A stretch of 64,000 nt of DNA from contig NZ_CP098514.1 in NCBI RefSeq assembly GCF_023703775.1, positions 1,054,001-1,118,000 of the forward strand, in the 5' to 3' direction. The notes under the pieces were generated by a model. It was not told the origin of the DNA and did no database searches. It was given only the letters and a program-made list of their open reading frames with translations. The translations under genes and the position numbers were made by a program. This document shows positions 21,906 through 55,971 of the stretch, piece by piece. This stretch comes from Haloplanus sp. GDY1. Lineage in GTDB: Archaea > Halobacteriota > Halobacteria > Halobacteriales > Haloferacaceae. Positions within the stretch are counted from its first letter, which is position 1. Every line of letters begins with the position of its first letter.

Positions 21906-22844
21906 ATGCGATCCGACCCACCCCGCGCGGTTCTCGCGACCCTCCTCGCCTGCCTCCTCGTCGTGGGGGCCGTCGCCGGCCTCGCCGCCGCCGCCGAGGA
22001 GCCCCGGGAGGAGCCGGCCGACACGAGCCCGCCCGTCCGGGTGTACGTCAGCGAGACGCTCGACGTCTCGGACGTGCAACTCACCGGCGGCGGGACGATC
22101 GGTACCGAGCAGACGACGTTCGTCTCGACGACCGGCGACAACGTGTTCACCGTCACCCCGGAGCGCGCAGACTTCGGCGGCGTCGATCCGGGGTCGTACG
22201 ACGCCGACACCGACGACGACGACGAGCCCGAACTGGTGGTCGTCCGCCCGCGGATCACCGACTTCGACGTGCGCAACGAGCGCGGCGTCGACATCGCGGG
22301 CGACACCCTCCCGGCCGACGACTTCGAGGAGGTCCGCATCACGGTCGAGTACAACTTCGCCGACGCCGACCGCCTCGACGTGACCGTCGAGAGCCCCGAC
22401 GGGATCGACCTGGCGGGCGACGCGGTCATCACGGAGAGCGGCGGCAGCGTCACCGTCGACACGAGCAGTGCCGACCCCGGAACGTACCGGATCACCGTCG
22501 AGGGGAGCGACATCGAGGCGGGGTCGGCGACGACCGAGGTGACCGTCGCCGGCGGCGCCACCGCGACGCCGGAACCCACCGCCACCGCCACCGCCACCGC
22601 CACGCCCACGCCGACTCCCGAACCAACGGCGACGCCGACCCCCGACCCGACGGCGACGCCGGAGCCCACCGCCACGCCGACCCCGGCTCCCGAACCCACC
22701 GTCACCGCCACGCCGGCGCCGACCGCCGAACCTACCGCCACCGCCACGCCCACGCCGACCGAATCCGCGGGTGACGGGTTCGGCGCCGTCGTCGCCGTCC
22801 TCGCCCTCCTGGCGGCCGCGGCGGTGCCGCGACGGCGCGACTGA
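21906..22844 (+). CDS. Secreted protein with Thr/Pro stalk and sorting-type C-terminus
   Basis: A 312-residue exported protein. A signal sequence (AVLATLLACLLVVGAVAGLAAAA) begins near residue 7. The body (about 35-215) is an acidic beta-rich domain. A 60-residue Thr/Pro/Ala stalk follows (TATPEPTATATATATPTPTP and onward), a likely O-glycosylated spacer. The end, DGFGAVVAVLALLAAAAVPRRR, resembles the PGF-CTERM signal handled by archaeosortase A, though with DGF rather than PGF. It is probably anchored in the S-layer. ATG 21906 is chosen because the signal peptide begins there. Confidence 0.78.
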   Translation: MRSDPPRAVLATLLACLLVVGAVAGLAAAAEEPREEPADTSPPVRVYVSETLDVSDVQLTGGGTIGTEQTTFVSTTGDNVFTVTPERADFGGVDPGSYDADTDDDDEPELVVVRPRITDFDVRNERGVDIAGDTLPADDFEEVRITVEYNFADADRLDVTVESPDGIDLAGDAVITESGGSVTVDTSSADPGTYRITVEGSDIEAGSATTEVTVAGGATATPEPTATATATATPTPTPEPTATPTPDPTATPEPTATPTPAPEPTVTATPAPTAEPTATATPTPTESAGDGFGAVVAVLALLAAAAVPRRRD

Positions 22845-47720: not shown

Positions 47721-48719
47721 ATGAGTGACGAACAGGCCGAATCGACCGACGAACCGGTCGACGCCGACGCGGCCGATGACCCCGACGCGGAGACTGCAAC
47801 CGAGCCCGAGACCGAGGAGGCGACCGGCCTGCAGGAGGGTGACTTCCTCCGACTCGAGTACACCGTCCGGACGACCGACGACGAACAGGTCGTCGACACG
47901 ACAAGCCAGGAGGTCGCCGAGGAGGCCGGCATCGACGAGGAGGGCCACGAGTTCGAGCCCCGAACCATCGTCATCGGCGCCGGCCACGTCTTTCAGGCCG
48001 TCGACGACGATCTGATCGGCAAGGAGGTCGGCGACGAAAACACGGTCCACATCGACGCCGTCGAGGCCTTCGGCGAGTTCGATCCCGACGACGTGCGCAC
48101 CGTCAGCGCCGAGAAGATCGACGAGGACGACCGCTACCCCGGCGCCCACGTGAACGTCGACGGACAGCAGGGCCACGTCGAGACGATCATCGGCGGCCGC
48201 GCGCGCGTCGACTTCAACCACCCGCTCGCCGGCGAGGACCTCGAATACGAGTACGAAATCGTCGACGTCGTCGACGACCCCGAGGAGCAGGCCCAGGGTC
48301 TGCTCGGCATGTACCTCGATCACGCGCCCGAGGTCTGGATCCAGACCGACGAGGTCGAGGAGGAGGTCCGGGTCGAAGTCGAATCCGAGGGCGACGAGCC
48401 CGAGTACGAGACCGAGACCCAGACGACCGAGAAGCGCACGCTCTACATCGAGGCCACGCCCCAGATGACGATGAACCAGCAGTGGCTCTTCCAGAAACAG
48501 CAGATCGCCCAGCAGGTCATGGACCGACTCGACCTCGACCGCGTCATCGTCCAGGAGACCATCGACGGCACGGGCGGCATGATGGGCGGCATGGGCGGCA
48601 TGATGGGCGGCATGGGCGGTGCCGGCGGTGCCGACGTCGAGGAGGCCCTCGAGGACGTCGACGTCGACGCCGACGAGATCGTCGAGGAACTCGACGAGGA
48701 CGTCGACATCGAGGAGTAA
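47721..48719 (+). CDS. FKBP-type peptidyl-prolyl isomerase (SlyD-like, long archaeal form)
   Basis: A 332-residue folding helper. After an acidic tail (about 1-38) the FKBP domain begins GDFLRLEYTVRTTDDEQVVDTT, with IVIGAGHVFQAVDDDLIGKEVGDENTV. The inserted-in-flap domain is seen in the middle (GAHVNVDGQQGHVETIIGGRARVDFNHPLAGEDLEYEYEI). A C-terminal archaeal extension follows (about 185-300), then Met/Gly repeats GGMMGGMGGMMGGMGG and an acidic end. A TTCTTAAGGG box lies about 27 nt before ATG 47721. Confidence 0.9.
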   Translation: MSDEQAESTDEPVDADAADDPDAETATEPETEEATGLQEGDFLRLEYTVRTTDDEQVVDTTSQEVAEEAGIDEEGHEFEPRTIVIGAGHVFQAVDDDLIGKEVGDENTVHIDAVEAFGEFDPDDVRTVSAEKIDEDDRYPGAHVNVDGQQGHVETIIGGRARVDFNHPLAGEDLEYEYEIVDVVDDPEEQAQGLLGMYLDHAPEVWIQTDEVEEEVRVEVESEGDEPEYETETQTTEKRTLYIEATPQMTMNQQWLFQKQQIAQQVMDRLDLDRVIVQETIDGTGGMMGGMGGMMGGMGGAGGADVEEALEDVDVDADEIVEELDEDVDIEE

Positions 48720-51780: not shown

Positions 51781-52842
51781 TCAGTCCCGGCGCTCGCGGA
51801 CGCAGTCGGCAAGCGGATCCAGAATCCGGTCGACGACCGTGTAGGGGTCGGTCTCGCGGGCGCGCACCGCGTCGACGAGGGCGTCCATCCCGCCGTGACG
51901 TTCGAGTTCCTCCTCCAGCAGGTCGGCGGCGTCGGCCCGGAGCAACTGTCGGATCTCCTCGGCGTACCGGGTCCGCGTCCGCCGGTCGAGTTCGCCCGTC
52001 GAGCGGAGGTGGTCGTAGTGGGCGTCGAGGACGTCGATCAGCTCCGCGACGCCCTCGCCCTCCGTGGCGACGGTTTCGACGATCCGGGGGTCCCAGTCGT
52101 CGCCGTCCGCGTCGTCCGCTCCGCCCGTGTCGTCGGCCGTCCCGACCCCCGCCCCGTGGTGGCCGGCGCCGGCCGTCGTCGCCCCCTCGCGCATGTGGAG
52201 CATCTCCTGGAGGTCCGAGACGGTGGTCGCGGCGCCGTCCTTGTCGGCCTTGTTGACGACGAACACGTCGCCGATCTCCAGGATCCCGGCCTTGAGCATC
52301 TGCACGTCGTCGCCGCTGCCCGGTTGGACGAGGACGACCACGGTGTCGGCGGTGCGGACCACGTCCACCTCGTTCTGTCCGGCGCCGACCGTCTCGACGA
52401 CGATCCGATCCTTGCCGAAGGCGTCGAGGGCCTTGATCGCGTCGGCGGTGGCGGTCGAGAGGCCGCCCAGTTGTCCGCGGGCGCTCATCGACCGGAAGAA
52501 CACGTCCATGTCGCCCACGTTCGAGGCCATGCGGATGCGGTCCCCGAGGACCGCGCCGCCGGTGTACGGCGAGGAGGGATCGACGGCGATGACGCCGACG
52601 GTGAGCCCCCGGTCGCGGTAGGCCTTGGCGAGCTTGTCGACCAGCGTGGACTTGCCGGCGCCGGGGCTGCCGGTCACGCCGATCACCTCCGCGTCGCCGG
52701 TGTGGGCGTGGAGTTCGGAGACGACCTCGCGGTAGCCGGGGGTGCGGTCCTCGATTTTGGAGATGGTGCGGGCGAGCGCACGGTGGTCGCCGTCCAGGAG
52801 GTCCCTGACCAACTCCTTCTCGGCGGCGTTCGCCTCGCTCAT
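51781..52842 (-). CDS. meaB: MeaB/ArgK-type GTPase, methylmalonyl-CoA mutase chaperone
   Basis: A 353-residue G3E-family GTPase that loads and protects B12-dependent methylmalonyl-CoA mutase. The P-loop is VTGSPGAGKSTLVDKLA (about 56-72). Also visible are AVDPSSPYTGGAVLGDRIRM (base of the switch), FFRSMSARGQLGGLS, VVETVGAGQNEVDVV, VVNKADKDGA, and the C-terminal dimerisation region. A His/Asp/Gly-rich insert (about 235-258) interrupts the usual spacing after NKAD. The ATG overlaps the mcmA2 stop (ATGA). Confidence 0.93.
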   Translation of the reverse strand: MSEANAAEKELVRDLLDGDHRALARTISKIEDRTPGYREVVSELHAHTGDAEVIGVTGSPGAGKSTLVDKLAKAYRDRGLTVGVIAVDPSSPYTGGAVLGDRIRMASNVGDMDVFFRSMSARGQLGGLSTATADAIKALDAFGKDRIVVETVGAGQNEVDVVRTADTVVVLVQPGSGDDVQMLKAGILEIGDVFVVNKADKDGAATTVSDLQEMLHMREGATTAGAGHHGAGVGTADDTGGADDADGDDWDPRIVETVATEGEGVAELIDVLDAHYDHLRSTGELDRRTRTRYAEEIRQLLRADAADLLEEELERHGGMDALVDAVRARETDPYTVVDRILDPLADCVRERRD

Positions 52843-53255
52843 CGTTGCGGCGCGTTGTCGCGGACGAAGTCGATGGTCTCCTGCATGGGCGTTCCGGGGC
52901 CGAACACCTCGGCCACGCCGGCGGCCACGAGCTCCTCGCGGTCCTCGTCGGGGACGATCCCGCCGACGATGACGAGGGTGTCCTCGAACGCGCCGTACTC
53001 CTTCAGCCCCTCGATCACCTTCGGCACGAGCGTGTTGTGCGCCCCGGAGAGGATGGAGATGCCGAGGACGTCCACGTCCTCCTGCACCGCGGCCTGGACG
53101 ATCTCCTCGGGCGCGCGATGGAGGCCGGAGTAGATCACTTCGAACCCGGCGTCCCGGAACGCGCGGGCGATGACGTGTGCGCCACGGTCGTGCCCGTCGA
53201 GGCCGACCTTGGCGACGAGACACCGGATGGTCCGCTGTTCCTGCCCTGCGCTCAT
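52839..53255 (-). CDS. mcmA2: Methylmalonyl-CoA mutase B12-binding subunit
   Basis: A 138-residue Rossmann-like cobalamin-binding domain with RCLVAKVGLDGHDRGAHV (DxHxxG: Asp20, His22, Gly25; His22 is the cobalt ligand), VIYSGLHRAPEEIV, ISILSGAHNTLVPKVIEGL and VIVGGIVPDED. In archaea the mutase is split into a large catalytic and a small B12 subunit; the large one is not in the window. It is coupled to meaB by a 4-nt overlap. The cofactor links it to the BtuCD importer at 8.4-10.7 kb. Confidence 0.94.
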   Translation of the reverse strand: MSAGQEQRTIRCLVAKVGLDGHDRGAHVIARAFRDAGFEVIYSGLHRAPEEIVQAAVQEDVDVLGISILSGAHNTLVPKVIEGLKEYGAFEDTLVIVGGIVPDEDREELVAAGVAEVFGPGTPMQETIDFVRDNAPQR

Positions 53256-53269: not shown

Positions 53270-53316
53270 CACGCGACCGTTTGACTCTAACGGAGCCGTC
53301 GGCAGAGGCGCCTACC

Positions 53317-53325
53317 TTTATAATA
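53317..53325 (+). promoter_or_regulatory. Strong TATA box of the two-gene repeat operon
   Basis: TTTATAATA, the best match to a TATA box in this part of the window, is centred about 27 nt before ATG 53348. This supports a leaderless transcript and argues that the small ORF beginning there is a real gene. Confidence 0.6.
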
Positions 53326-53347
53326 GAGCGGATTGTTAACGAAAGAC

Positions 53348-53545
53348 ATGCATCGAACCGGATCGACGGTCGGCAAACTCGCCGCCGCCGTCACGAGCAT
53401 CGTCCTGACCATCGTCACCGTCGCGACCGGCGAAGCGCCCGTTTCGGACGGTGAACGCGGACTGGCGGCGCACGCGGCCGCGTCGCGTCCCGTCGGCTGT
53501 CCCGTCCGCTCGACCGACACCGCGTGGGGAGGTGCGTCGGCATGA
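53348..53545 (+). CDS. Small membrane protein, first gene of the repeat operon
   Basis: A 65-residue protein. One hydrophobic helix (LAAAVTSIVLTIVTVATG, about 10-28) follows a basic N-terminus, so it is a membrane anchor or signal peptide. The remainder is short and polar, with one cysteine (PVGCPVRS). No family is known to me. A strong TATA box at the leaderless distance and an ATGA overlap with the next gene both indicate that it is real and coupled to the repeat protein. Confidence 0.6.
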   Translation: MHRTGSTVGKLAAAVTSIVLTIVTVATGEAPVSDGERGLAAHAAASRPVGCPVRSTDTAWGGASA

Positions 53546-54111
53546 GCCTGCTCGACAGGATCCTCTCGATCTTCGGCGGCGGATCGAGCGCCGGCGATCC
53601 GGCGACGCCGTCGGAGACGGAGGAGGAGGTCGAAGAGGAACCCGAGGAGGAGGTCGAAGAGGAACCCGAGGAGGAGGTCGAAGAGGAACCCGAGGAGGAG
53701 GTCGAAGAGGAACCCGAGGAGGAGGTCGAAGAGGAACCCGAGGAGGAGGTCGAAGAGGAACCCGAGGAAGACGAGGGGCCCGAGGACGTCCCGACGAAGG
53801 ACGTCGCCGCCGCGGCCGACCCGCGCCGGCGTGACGGCGAGGAGAACACCGTCGGGAACCGCGCCGCCAACCCCGCGGATCACGGCGAGGCGGCGGAGGA
53901 CGCGGAGGAGGAGGACGCGGAGGAGGAGGACGCGGAGGAGGAGGACGCCGAGGCGGAGGACGCCGAGGCCGAGGAGGACGAGGGAGAGGATGGACCGGAG
54001 AACGTCCCGACCAAGGACGTCGCCGCCGCCGCCGACCCGCGGCGCCGCGAGGGCGAGGAGAACACCGTCGAGAACCGCGCCGCCAACCCAGACGACCAGC
54101 GGGCCACGTAG
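53542..54111 (+). CDS. Acidic repeat protein with amphipathic N-terminus and duplicated module
   Basis: A 189-residue protein of unknown function. The first 12 residues (MSLLDRILSIFG) form an amphipathic helix suited to membrane attachment. Residues 27-74 are six exact copies of EEEVEEEP. A 35-residue module (79-113, VPTKDVAAAADPRRRDGEEN core) is repeated at 151-185 with only four or five changes. Between them is an acidic spacer of DAEEE repeats (about 118-148). The modules have a basic DPRRR patch in an otherwise strongly acidic chain. The ATG overlaps the stop of the small membrane protein gene. Confidence 0.7.
   Translation: MSLLDRILSIFGGGSSAGDPATPSETEEEVEEEPEEEVEEEPEEEVEEEPEEEVEEEPEEEVEEEPEEEVEEEPEEDEGPEDVPTKDVAAAADPRRRDGEENTVGNRAANPADHGEAAEDAEEEDAEEEDAEEEDAEAEDAEAEEDEGEDGPENVPTKDVAAAADPRRREGEENTVENRAANPDDQRAT
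53620..53763 (+). repeat. Six tandem 24-bp repeats
   Basis: A 24-bp unit (GAGGAGGAGGTCGAAGAGGA plus ACCC) is repeated six times without a change that I can see, encoding EEEVEEEP each time. Exact identity at third codon positions points to recent expansion by slippage or unequal crossing-over. Copy number probably varies between strains. Confidence 0.9.
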
Positions 54112-54120
54112 GTCGGGGGC

Positions 54121-55971
54121 CTACGCCGACTCCGCGCCCGACCCGAGGTGCGTATCGAGGAAGTCGGCGACGGCCGAGTAGGCCTCGATCCGGTTCTCCA
54201 GTTTCGTGAAGCCGTGACCCTCGTCCTCGAAGACGAGTTCGCGGACGGGGACGCCCGCCTCGCGGGCGCCCTCGACGATGCGGTGGGCCTCGCTCACGGG
54301 CACCCGCGGGTCGTTCTCGCCGTGGAGGACGAAGAGGGGCGCGGCGATGTCATCGACGTGGTTGATGGGGCTGATCGACTCCAGTAGCTCCCGGTCCTCG
54401 TCGAGCGACCCGTACTCGGCCTCGCGGAGTTCGCGCCGCCAGTCCCCCGTGTTCTCGAGGAAGGTGACGAAGTTGGCGATGCCGACGACGTCGACGCCGG
54501 CCGCCCAGAGGTCGGGATAGGTGGTGAGCGCGGCGAGGGTCATGAACCCGCCGTAGGAGGCGCCCATCACCGCGATGCGGTCGGGGTCGACCGCTGGGTG
54601 GTCGTGCAACCACTCGACGCCCGCCTTCAGGTCGGCGACCGAGTCCATCCGCTTGTCCACGTCGTCGAGGTGGGTGTAGGCCCTGCCGTAGCCGGTCGAC
54701 CCGCGGACGTTGGGTTCGAACACCGCGTACCCCCGCGAGAGGAGGTACTGTTTCACCCGACCGAAGGAGGGGCGGCGCTGGGACTCGGGACCGCCGTGGA
54801 CGTCGACGACGACGGGCGTCTCGCCGTGGCCGGTGTCGGTCGCGGGCAGGGAGAAGAACGCGGGAATCTCCAGGCCGTCGAAGGAGGGGTAACGCACGAG
54901 TTCCGGCGCGACGAAGGTGTCGCGGGGGATGCCCGCGGTGGAGGCGCGGGTCCAGCGCTCGGCCACCCCGGTCGTCGCGTCGACGACGTAGACGTTGGCC
55001 GTGTCGTCGCTCCGGGTGACGGTCAGCGCGAAGCGGTCGCCGTCGGGGCCGAAACTCACGCCGCCGGCGACCGAGGGCGGGAGGTCGGGGGTCGGGAAGT
55101 GATCAAGTCGCCCGGGGGCGACGAGTTCGCCGACGCCGAGTTCGGTGTAGCCGTCGACGTTTCGCGAGTAGACCAGCCGGCGGGACTCCTGGTCGACGGC
55201 CACGCCGTCGACGTTCCACTCGTCGTCGTCGAGGGGCGTCGTCCCGTCGTCCGCCGCCTCGACGGCGGCGACGTCGTCGGTCGCGAGGTCGACGTGGGCG
55301 AGCGAGAGGACGTCGCCGTCGCGGTCGGTGGCGAGGTAGACGCCCTCGCCGTCGGGGCCCCACTCGGCGCTCAGGTGACGCACCTCGCCGTCGTGCGGCG
55401 TCAGGTGACGCCGGGTGCCCGTCGCCACGTCGAGGACGTACACGTCCTGATCGAAACTGGAGTGGGATTCGGTGAGGAGGAGGCGGTCGCCGTCGGGGCT
55501 CCAGCCGTCGACCGAGAGCCAGCCGTCGCCCTCGAAGACCAGTTCGGCGTCGGCGCCCGTCGCCGTCCGGTCCTGGACGTACACGTCGAAGACGGCGCTC
55601 TCCCGGCGGTTCGATGCGAAGGCGAAGCGCTCGCCGTCCGGGCTCCACCCGCCGAACCAGTGTTTCGCGTCGGGGTGCTCCGTCAGGTCGGTTATCCCGC
55701 CGGTCGGCACGTCGAGGCGGTAGAGCGTCTCGCGCTCGTCGCCGCCGCGGTCACGGCCGACGATCAGTTCCGGCCGCTCGGGCGACCACGAGGCGAAGGT
55801 GACGCGGTCGTCGAAGAAGGTGCGCTGCTCGGGCCACGCCCCCGGTTCCGAGAGCGTCCAGACCTGGGGAACGCCCGTGGTGTCCATGAGAAAGGAGAGG
55901 TGGTCGCCGTCCGGGCCGACGGAGGCGCCGTGTGCGCTCCGCACGTTGAGGTAGCGCTCGATGTCGAACAT
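54121..55971 (-). CDS. S9 family serine peptidase (acylaminoacyl/dipeptidyl peptidase type)
   Basis: A 616-residue prolyl-oligopeptidase-family enzyme without a signal peptide. The N-terminal beta-propeller (about 1-350) has repeated SWSPERPE, GWSPDGERFAFAS, GWSPDGDRLLLTES blades. The alpha/beta hydrolase domain has Ser472 in MGASYGGFM, Asp554 in LHGENDPRVP and His586 in DEGHGF; the spacing is normal. VDVHGGPESQRRPSF forms the oxyanion region. It probably degrades peptides in the cytosol. A perfect inverted repeat sits just upstream of ATG 55971. Confidence 0.93.
   Translation of the reverse strand: MFDIERYLNVRSAHGASVGPDGDHLSFLMDTTGVPQVWTLSEPGAWPEQRTFFDDRVTFASWSPERPELIVGRDRGGDERETLYRLDVPTGGITDLTEHPDAKHWFGGWSPDGERFAFASNRRESAVFDVYVQDRTATGADAELVFEGDGWLSVDGWSPDGDRLLLTESHSSFDQDVYVLDVATGTRRHLTPHDGEVRHLSAEWGPDGEGVYLATDRDGDVLSLAHVDLATDDVAAVEAADDGTTPLDDDEWNVDGVAVDQESRRLVYSRNVDGYTELGVGELVAPGRLDHFPTPDLPPSVAGGVSFGPDGDRFALTVTRSDDTANVYVVDATTGVAERWTRASTAGIPRDTFVAPELVRYPSFDGLEIPAFFSLPATDTGHGETPVVVDVHGGPESQRRPSFGRVKQYLLSRGYAVFEPNVRGSTGYGRAYTHLDDVDKRMDSVADLKAGVEWLHDHPAVDPDRIAVMGASYGGFMTLAALTTYPDLWAAGVDVVGIANFVTFLENTGDWRRELREAEYGSLDEDRELLESISPINHVDDIAAPLFVLHGENDPRVPVSEAHRIVEGAREAGVPVRELVFEDEGHGFTKLENRIEAYSAVADFLDTHLGSGAESA

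Follow-up and report, generated by a model that had tools for sequence, protein, structure and literature searches.

We describe a two-gene operon of Haloplanus sp. GDY1 that encodes a putative one-helix membrane protein and, overlapping it, an acidic repeat protein. The best reading of the locus, judged from sequence comparison, is an operon restricted to the genus Haloplanus. The pair is a genuine, undescribed and genus-restricted gene family, and it is no new kind of system. The window, i.e., the whole stretch of DNA analyzed, spans 64,000 nucleotides (positions 1,054,001 to 1,118,000 of contig NZ_CP098514.1, forward strand), and the features of the locus are listed by their position in it in Table 1. 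An initial annotation had proposed that a TATA box drives a 65-residue open reading frame (ORF) which overlaps, at ATGA, a 189-residue ORF. Direct reading of the sequence bears this out: the TATA box starts 31 nt before the ATG, the small ORF runs from the ATG at 53348 to the TGA at 53545 (an automated ORF listing extends its start to a TTG at 53333), and the ATGA at 53542-53545 belongs to both ORFs. The accompanying proposal is likewise supported: an operon that pairs a one-helix protein with an acidic repeat protein whose N-terminus is amphipathic.

Table 1. Features of the operon, with positions in the window.
Feature	Position	Strand	Basis
TATA box of the operon, TTTATAATA	53317..53325	+	Direct sequence reading; 30-31 nt to ATG in 11 Haloplanus genomes
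Promoter-proximal block TGTTAACGAAAGAC, directly 5' of the start codon	53334..53347	+	Pairwise identity across relatives
Small one-helix membrane protein ORF, 65 aa, predicted TM segment LAAAVTSIVLTIVTVAT	53348..53545	+	11/12 Haloplanus genomes
Shine-Dalgarno-like GGAGGTG 5' of the acidic gene	53528..53534	+	Present in most relatives
Acidic repeat protein ORF, 189 aa	53542..54111	+	10/12 Haloplanus genomes
Predicted amphipathic helix at the N-terminus, with Gly linker, MSLLDRILSIFGGGS, in form like the SepF membrane-targeting peptide	53542..53586	+	pN/pS 0.52; AlphaFold2
Perfect tandem array of a 24-bp unit, encoding six EEEVEEEP units	53620..53768	+	Tandem Repeats Finder; private to this genome
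Module copy 1, VPTKDVAAAADPRRRDGEENTVGNRAANPAD	53788..53886	+	Profile E 2.8e-19
Second acidic spacer, 15-bp period, EEDAE-type	53895..53983	+	Tandem Repeats Finder
Module copy 2, C-terminal, ending NPDDQRAT	54004..54105	+	Profile E 9.3e-20

We searched for the two genes with two profiles: (i) one of the module that recurs in the acidic protein, and (ii) one of the small protein. Of the 12 Haloplanus genomes, 10 have the acidic gene, with E values from 5e-16 to 2e-20, and 11 have the small ORF, at a shared genomic position. Conservation of the 65-residue ORF had been named beforehand as a test of the claim of novelty, and the claim survives. Beyond the genus, 159 genomes of the family were searched, and neither the module profile nor the small-protein profile had a match in them. 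In samples from the order (392 genomes) and the phylum (393), the module profile gave only weak partial matches outside the genus (best 2.2e-4). We took such weak matches, with E from 2e-4 to 0.009, as chance; one lies inside a kinase-like ORF and the others in short or antisense-looking frames. A profile search of genome contigs with alignment A2 matched only Haloplanus sp. LUM.53 (NZ_JAQCNJ010000011.1), and a search of the same kind that used the full alignment, A1, gave no confirmation. A viral or plasmid origin was rejected, as there was no match in viral contigs or plasmids. Comparison of the pair with Pfam, NCBIfam and PHROGs gave no family match above cut-off, and the module had 0 matches to PDB chains at E up to 10. 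Weak Pfam matches to ACC_epsilon, PTE, PARP and DUF4090 concerned single members only and were taken as chance. With no match to a characterized family in these collections, the earlier statement that no described family is known to have this architecture is supported.

The operon lies between the gene for a methylmalonyl-CoA mutase B12-binding subunit upstream (52839-53255, minus strand; TIGR00640, E 2.6e-54) and that for a prolyl-oligopeptidase-family peptidase downstream (54121-55971, minus strand; PF00326, E 2e-48). Because a genome from another genus of the family (G033) has the mutase gene and then the same peptidase gene within ~130 bp, with no operon between, the site looks empty outside Haloplanus. 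Two genomes, G006 and G010, depart from the full arrangement, and both nest within Haloplanus on a tree built from the mutase subunit and the GTPase region beside it. In G006 (L082), the promoter and small ORF are intact, but the acidic gene breaks off after its first five codons, where the sequence enters the antisense of the peptidase end. G006 is thereby a natural single-gene knockout of the acidic gene. G010 has neither gene at the site, and neither profile matches elsewhere in its genome. Since one relative lost the acidic gene only and another lost both, the gene pair is dispensable.

In a further relative, G007, the operon adjoins the peptidase gene, and ~7.4 kb of other genes lie between the operon and the mutase subunit. 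This interval (L083:1139-8114) contains two TrmB-like regulators and a stomatin/SPFH-like protein, all assigned by eye. We rejected a functional link to the mutase B12 subunit as unlikely, since its gene is divergent, lies 7.4 kb away in G007, and stays where the operon was lost. We note that a separate element, GTTTGACTCTAACGGA (TCCGTTAGAGTCAAAC on the minus strand; window 53279-53304), is strongly conserved ~20-40 nt upstream of the mutase B12 subunit gene. It is kept in Haloplanus and in most sampled genera of the family (L092-L107), and it looks like a promoter or operator of the mutase subunit gene on the minus strand.

Of 11 Haloplanus genomes, 10 have the TATA box 31 nt from the ATG of the small ORF, and one has it at 30 nt. 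A TATA box usually lies ~27 nt from the transcript start. A leaderless transcript would fit the locus, the spacing of 30-31 nt being as expected for a start close to the ATG. Leaderless transcripts, a class defined by a start 0-5 nt before the ATG, make up 72% of the protein-coding ones in H. volcanii (PMC4983044). Mean pairwise identity just 5' of the ATG is 0.79 at positions -17 to -1, compared with 0.39 at -60 to -38. The TGTTAACGAAAGAC block, which sits here between the TATA box and the ATG, is conserved more strongly than the TATA region and may act as an operator or in initiation. It occurs a single time in this genome with up to two mismatches allowed. A regulon sharing the GTTAACGAAAGAC block was rejected, as the genome holds one site only.

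Both ORFs are under protein-level constraint in the right frame, moderate in degree. Pooled pN/pS in the proposed frame was 0.44 for the last copy of the module and 0.52 for the N-terminus of the acidic protein. In the TM core of the small ORF, it was 0.44 in frame versus 0.91 and 1.54 in the shifted frames. Alternative same-strand frames gave values of 0.91-2.2 and antisense frames 0.60-2.3. Hence, because the low pN/pS is specific to the frame, we consider the N-terminus, the module and the helix to be real protein features. The tail of the small protein, at a pN/pS of 0.88, is therefore nearly free. We also considered coding on the opposite strand, where a 198-aa ORF spans 53883-53287, and rejected it because antisense pN/pS is higher. 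The lowest antisense values, 0.60 and 0.82, come from the frame that mirrors the coding frame in its wobble positions, and the 0.60 is the mirror expected of that frame.

AlphaFold2 gives the small protein a single helix at residues 7-29. The hydrophobic helix is short (~17 residues), and the protein is predicted to cross the membrane once. Its length varies from 33 to 70 residues among relatives (33 aa in total in G008); only the N-terminus and helix are constrained, and the tail is unconserved. The shared operon suggests that the two proteins may be physically linked, although G006 has the small ORF without the acidic gene.

The acidic protein has a net charge of -73 and consists of 45% D+E over its 189 aa. 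Across all members the net charge ranges from -26 to -75, and the poly-E/D spacers differ in sequence yet stay acidic. In all ten members the N-terminus is of the type M-[SG]-L-[LIF]-x-x-[ILV]-[LR]-[SA]-[LIM]-[LF], with a Gly-rich linker in most. Its amphipathic moment is mildly above that of shuffled sequences, 3% of which reach the observed value. The six exact EEEVEEEP octapeptides first read from the sequence were recovered by Tandem Repeats Finder as a 24-bp unit in 6.2 copies, 100% identical, and were found in this genome only. From species to species, different acidic repeats are substituted as spacers. Elsewhere in the window are two other coding-looking tandem arrays, one of a Thr/Pro-rich type (22559-22760; 24/36/72-bp repeat) and one of a GGMGG type (48566-48619; 21-bp repeat).

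The module is ~34 residues long and is present once per protein in two genomes, twice in four and three times in four. Over 19 aligned module rows the invariant positions are A7, A10-D-P-R-R14, T21-V22, R25-A26, P29 and D31, and ADPRR is kept in all 22 module copies found by profile. The initial annotation had reported two 35-residue modules with a DPRRR patch; the two copies are there, whereas the true invariant is ADPRR and the residue after it varies. Module copies are 90% identical within a genome and 69% between genomes, and so evolve in concert. The further suggestion that two binding modules are held at a set distance did not hold up, and we rejected a two-module ruler of fixed spacing: copy number is 1, 2 or 3, the spacers vary in length and sequence, the octapeptide array is private, and the copies evolve in concert. 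For the acidic protein, AlphaFold2 (mean pLDDT 55) places one helix at residues 3-11 and a pair of short helices in each module, and leaves the spacers disordered; the disorder and helices are weakly supported because this confidence is low.

We tentatively favor, with a probability of roughly 0.4, a flexible, disordered, acidic and membrane-peripheral protein that acts in multivalent docking or clustering together with a one-helix partner, the pair being dispensable and lineage-specific. The strong TATA promoter would yield, as its spacing suggests, a leaderless or near-leaderless mRNA beginning at the small ORF, and the acidic gene would be translated off the same mRNA via the Shine-Dalgarno site and ATGA coupling. 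The small protein is predicted to span the membrane a single time. The SepF targeting peptide serves as the analogy for the acidic protein, which is predicted to lie on the cytoplasmic membrane face, attached by the amphipathic helix and Gly linker of its N-terminus, and to project from there a long, disordered and highly charged chain. This chain would display the 1-3 near-identical ~34-residue motifs, with ADPRR, TV, RA and P-x-D invariant in their sequence, and these may serve as short linear docking sites for a partner. The partners put forward in the initial annotation (a cation, a DNA-binding protein or an envelope component) are speculative. Module copy number would set valency, and spacer length and composition would be nearly free.

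Other accounts of the pair need to be weighed against multivalent docking. If charge is what matters, the acidic protein could be a soluble polyanion (a nucleic-acid mimic, chaperone or cation buffer) in which the module plays a minor part in solubility or packing. The net charge of -26 to -75 in all members, together with freely varying poly-E/D spacers that remain acidic, points this way. However, constraint is greatest in the module and N-terminus and not in the acidic tract, all 22 profile-found module copies keep ADPRR with its basic residues, and a soluble mimic would need no amphipathic N-terminus, so we think this account unlikely. Doubtful, too, is the idea that the small ORF serves only as a leader for coupled translation of the acidic protein and is functionless as a protein. 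Its helix core is constrained in frame (0.44 versus 0.91 and 1.54) and the ORF remains intact in G006 after deletion of the acidic gene, even though the near-neutral tail (0.88), the length range of 33 to 70 residues, the ATGA or near overlap, and the Shine-Dalgarno site within the 3' end of the small ORF are all consistent with a leader.

The two genes might also be a young orphan pair kept by drift or weak selection, without a settled function. Presence in one genus only, moderate constraint (0.44-0.66) and two independent losses agree with this, but frame-specific constraint throughout the genus, homogenization of the motif across copies and the fixed promoter spacing make it rather improbable. 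A toxin-antitoxin-like module, with a small hydrophobic toxin and an acidic neutralizer, is suggested by the overlapping genes, the short single-helix first product and the patchy loss. We find it very hard to credit: G006 retains the helix ORF and promoter without the acidic gene, which should be lethal were the helix a toxin; the pair occupies a single fixed chromosomal site; and it has no family match in Pfam, NCBIfam or PHROGs. The gene pair is a clean genus-restricted case, under protein-level selection, in which an internal motif multiplies and homogenizes while the sequence between copies is replaced. On the docking reading, the pair would illustrate how a protein of this multivalent kind emerges inside one lineage.

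We compared the acidic protein with three known systems. The procyclic acidic repetitive protein of trypanosomes (PF05887) likewise has a low-complexity acidic tract of Glu/Pro type and is lineage-restricted. However, the acidic protein shows no apparent signal peptide or GPI anchor and its repeat differs; homology was rejected, as the match (E 0.0015) occurs in 1 of 10 members and to low-complexity sequence only. TonB-type proteins with Glu/Pro-Lys/Pro spacers resemble its predicted form, a membrane-anchored, extended and charged spacer with a terminal binding region. In contrast to these, the acidic protein has no TM anchor in the same chain, carries several motifs and not one folded domain, and is predicted to be cytoplasmic; its E value of 9.9 to the TonB model falls far short of cut-off.

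The third system, and the nearest parallel in function for the N-terminus, is SepF. In H. volcanii, the SepF peptide MGIMSKILGGGG alone suffices to place GFP at midcell (PMC8187382), and Haloplanus SepF carries the same peptide, in the form MGIMSKILGGG[GE]. The acidic-protein N-termini MGLIDKILSLFGGGG (G009) and MSLLGKILSIFGGGSS (G007) are close to it in form: a short N-terminal peptide, putatively amphipathic, that reads M-G/S-[LI]-x-x-K-[IL]-L and has a Gly linker after it. The likeness is one of form and is not demonstrated homology. The acidic protein has one extra helical turn (SLF/SIF), and its body is acidic and predicted to be disordered where that of SepF is a folded domain; the SepF domain (PF04472) has no Pfam match in any of the 10 acidic proteins. 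Genuine SepF is encoded at a separate locus in 9 of 9 genomes tested, including G006 and G010, both without the acidic gene. One speculative and improbable extension is an accessory factor, specific to Haloplanus, that acts in dividing or shaping the cell, in which the SepF-like peptide would bring the scaffold to the division ring or membrane, the ADPRR...NTVxNRA modules would recruit a partner, and the one-helix protein would be a membrane co-factor. If the SepF-like peptide is functional, the acidic protein would represent a lineage-specific layer added to archaeal membrane organization.
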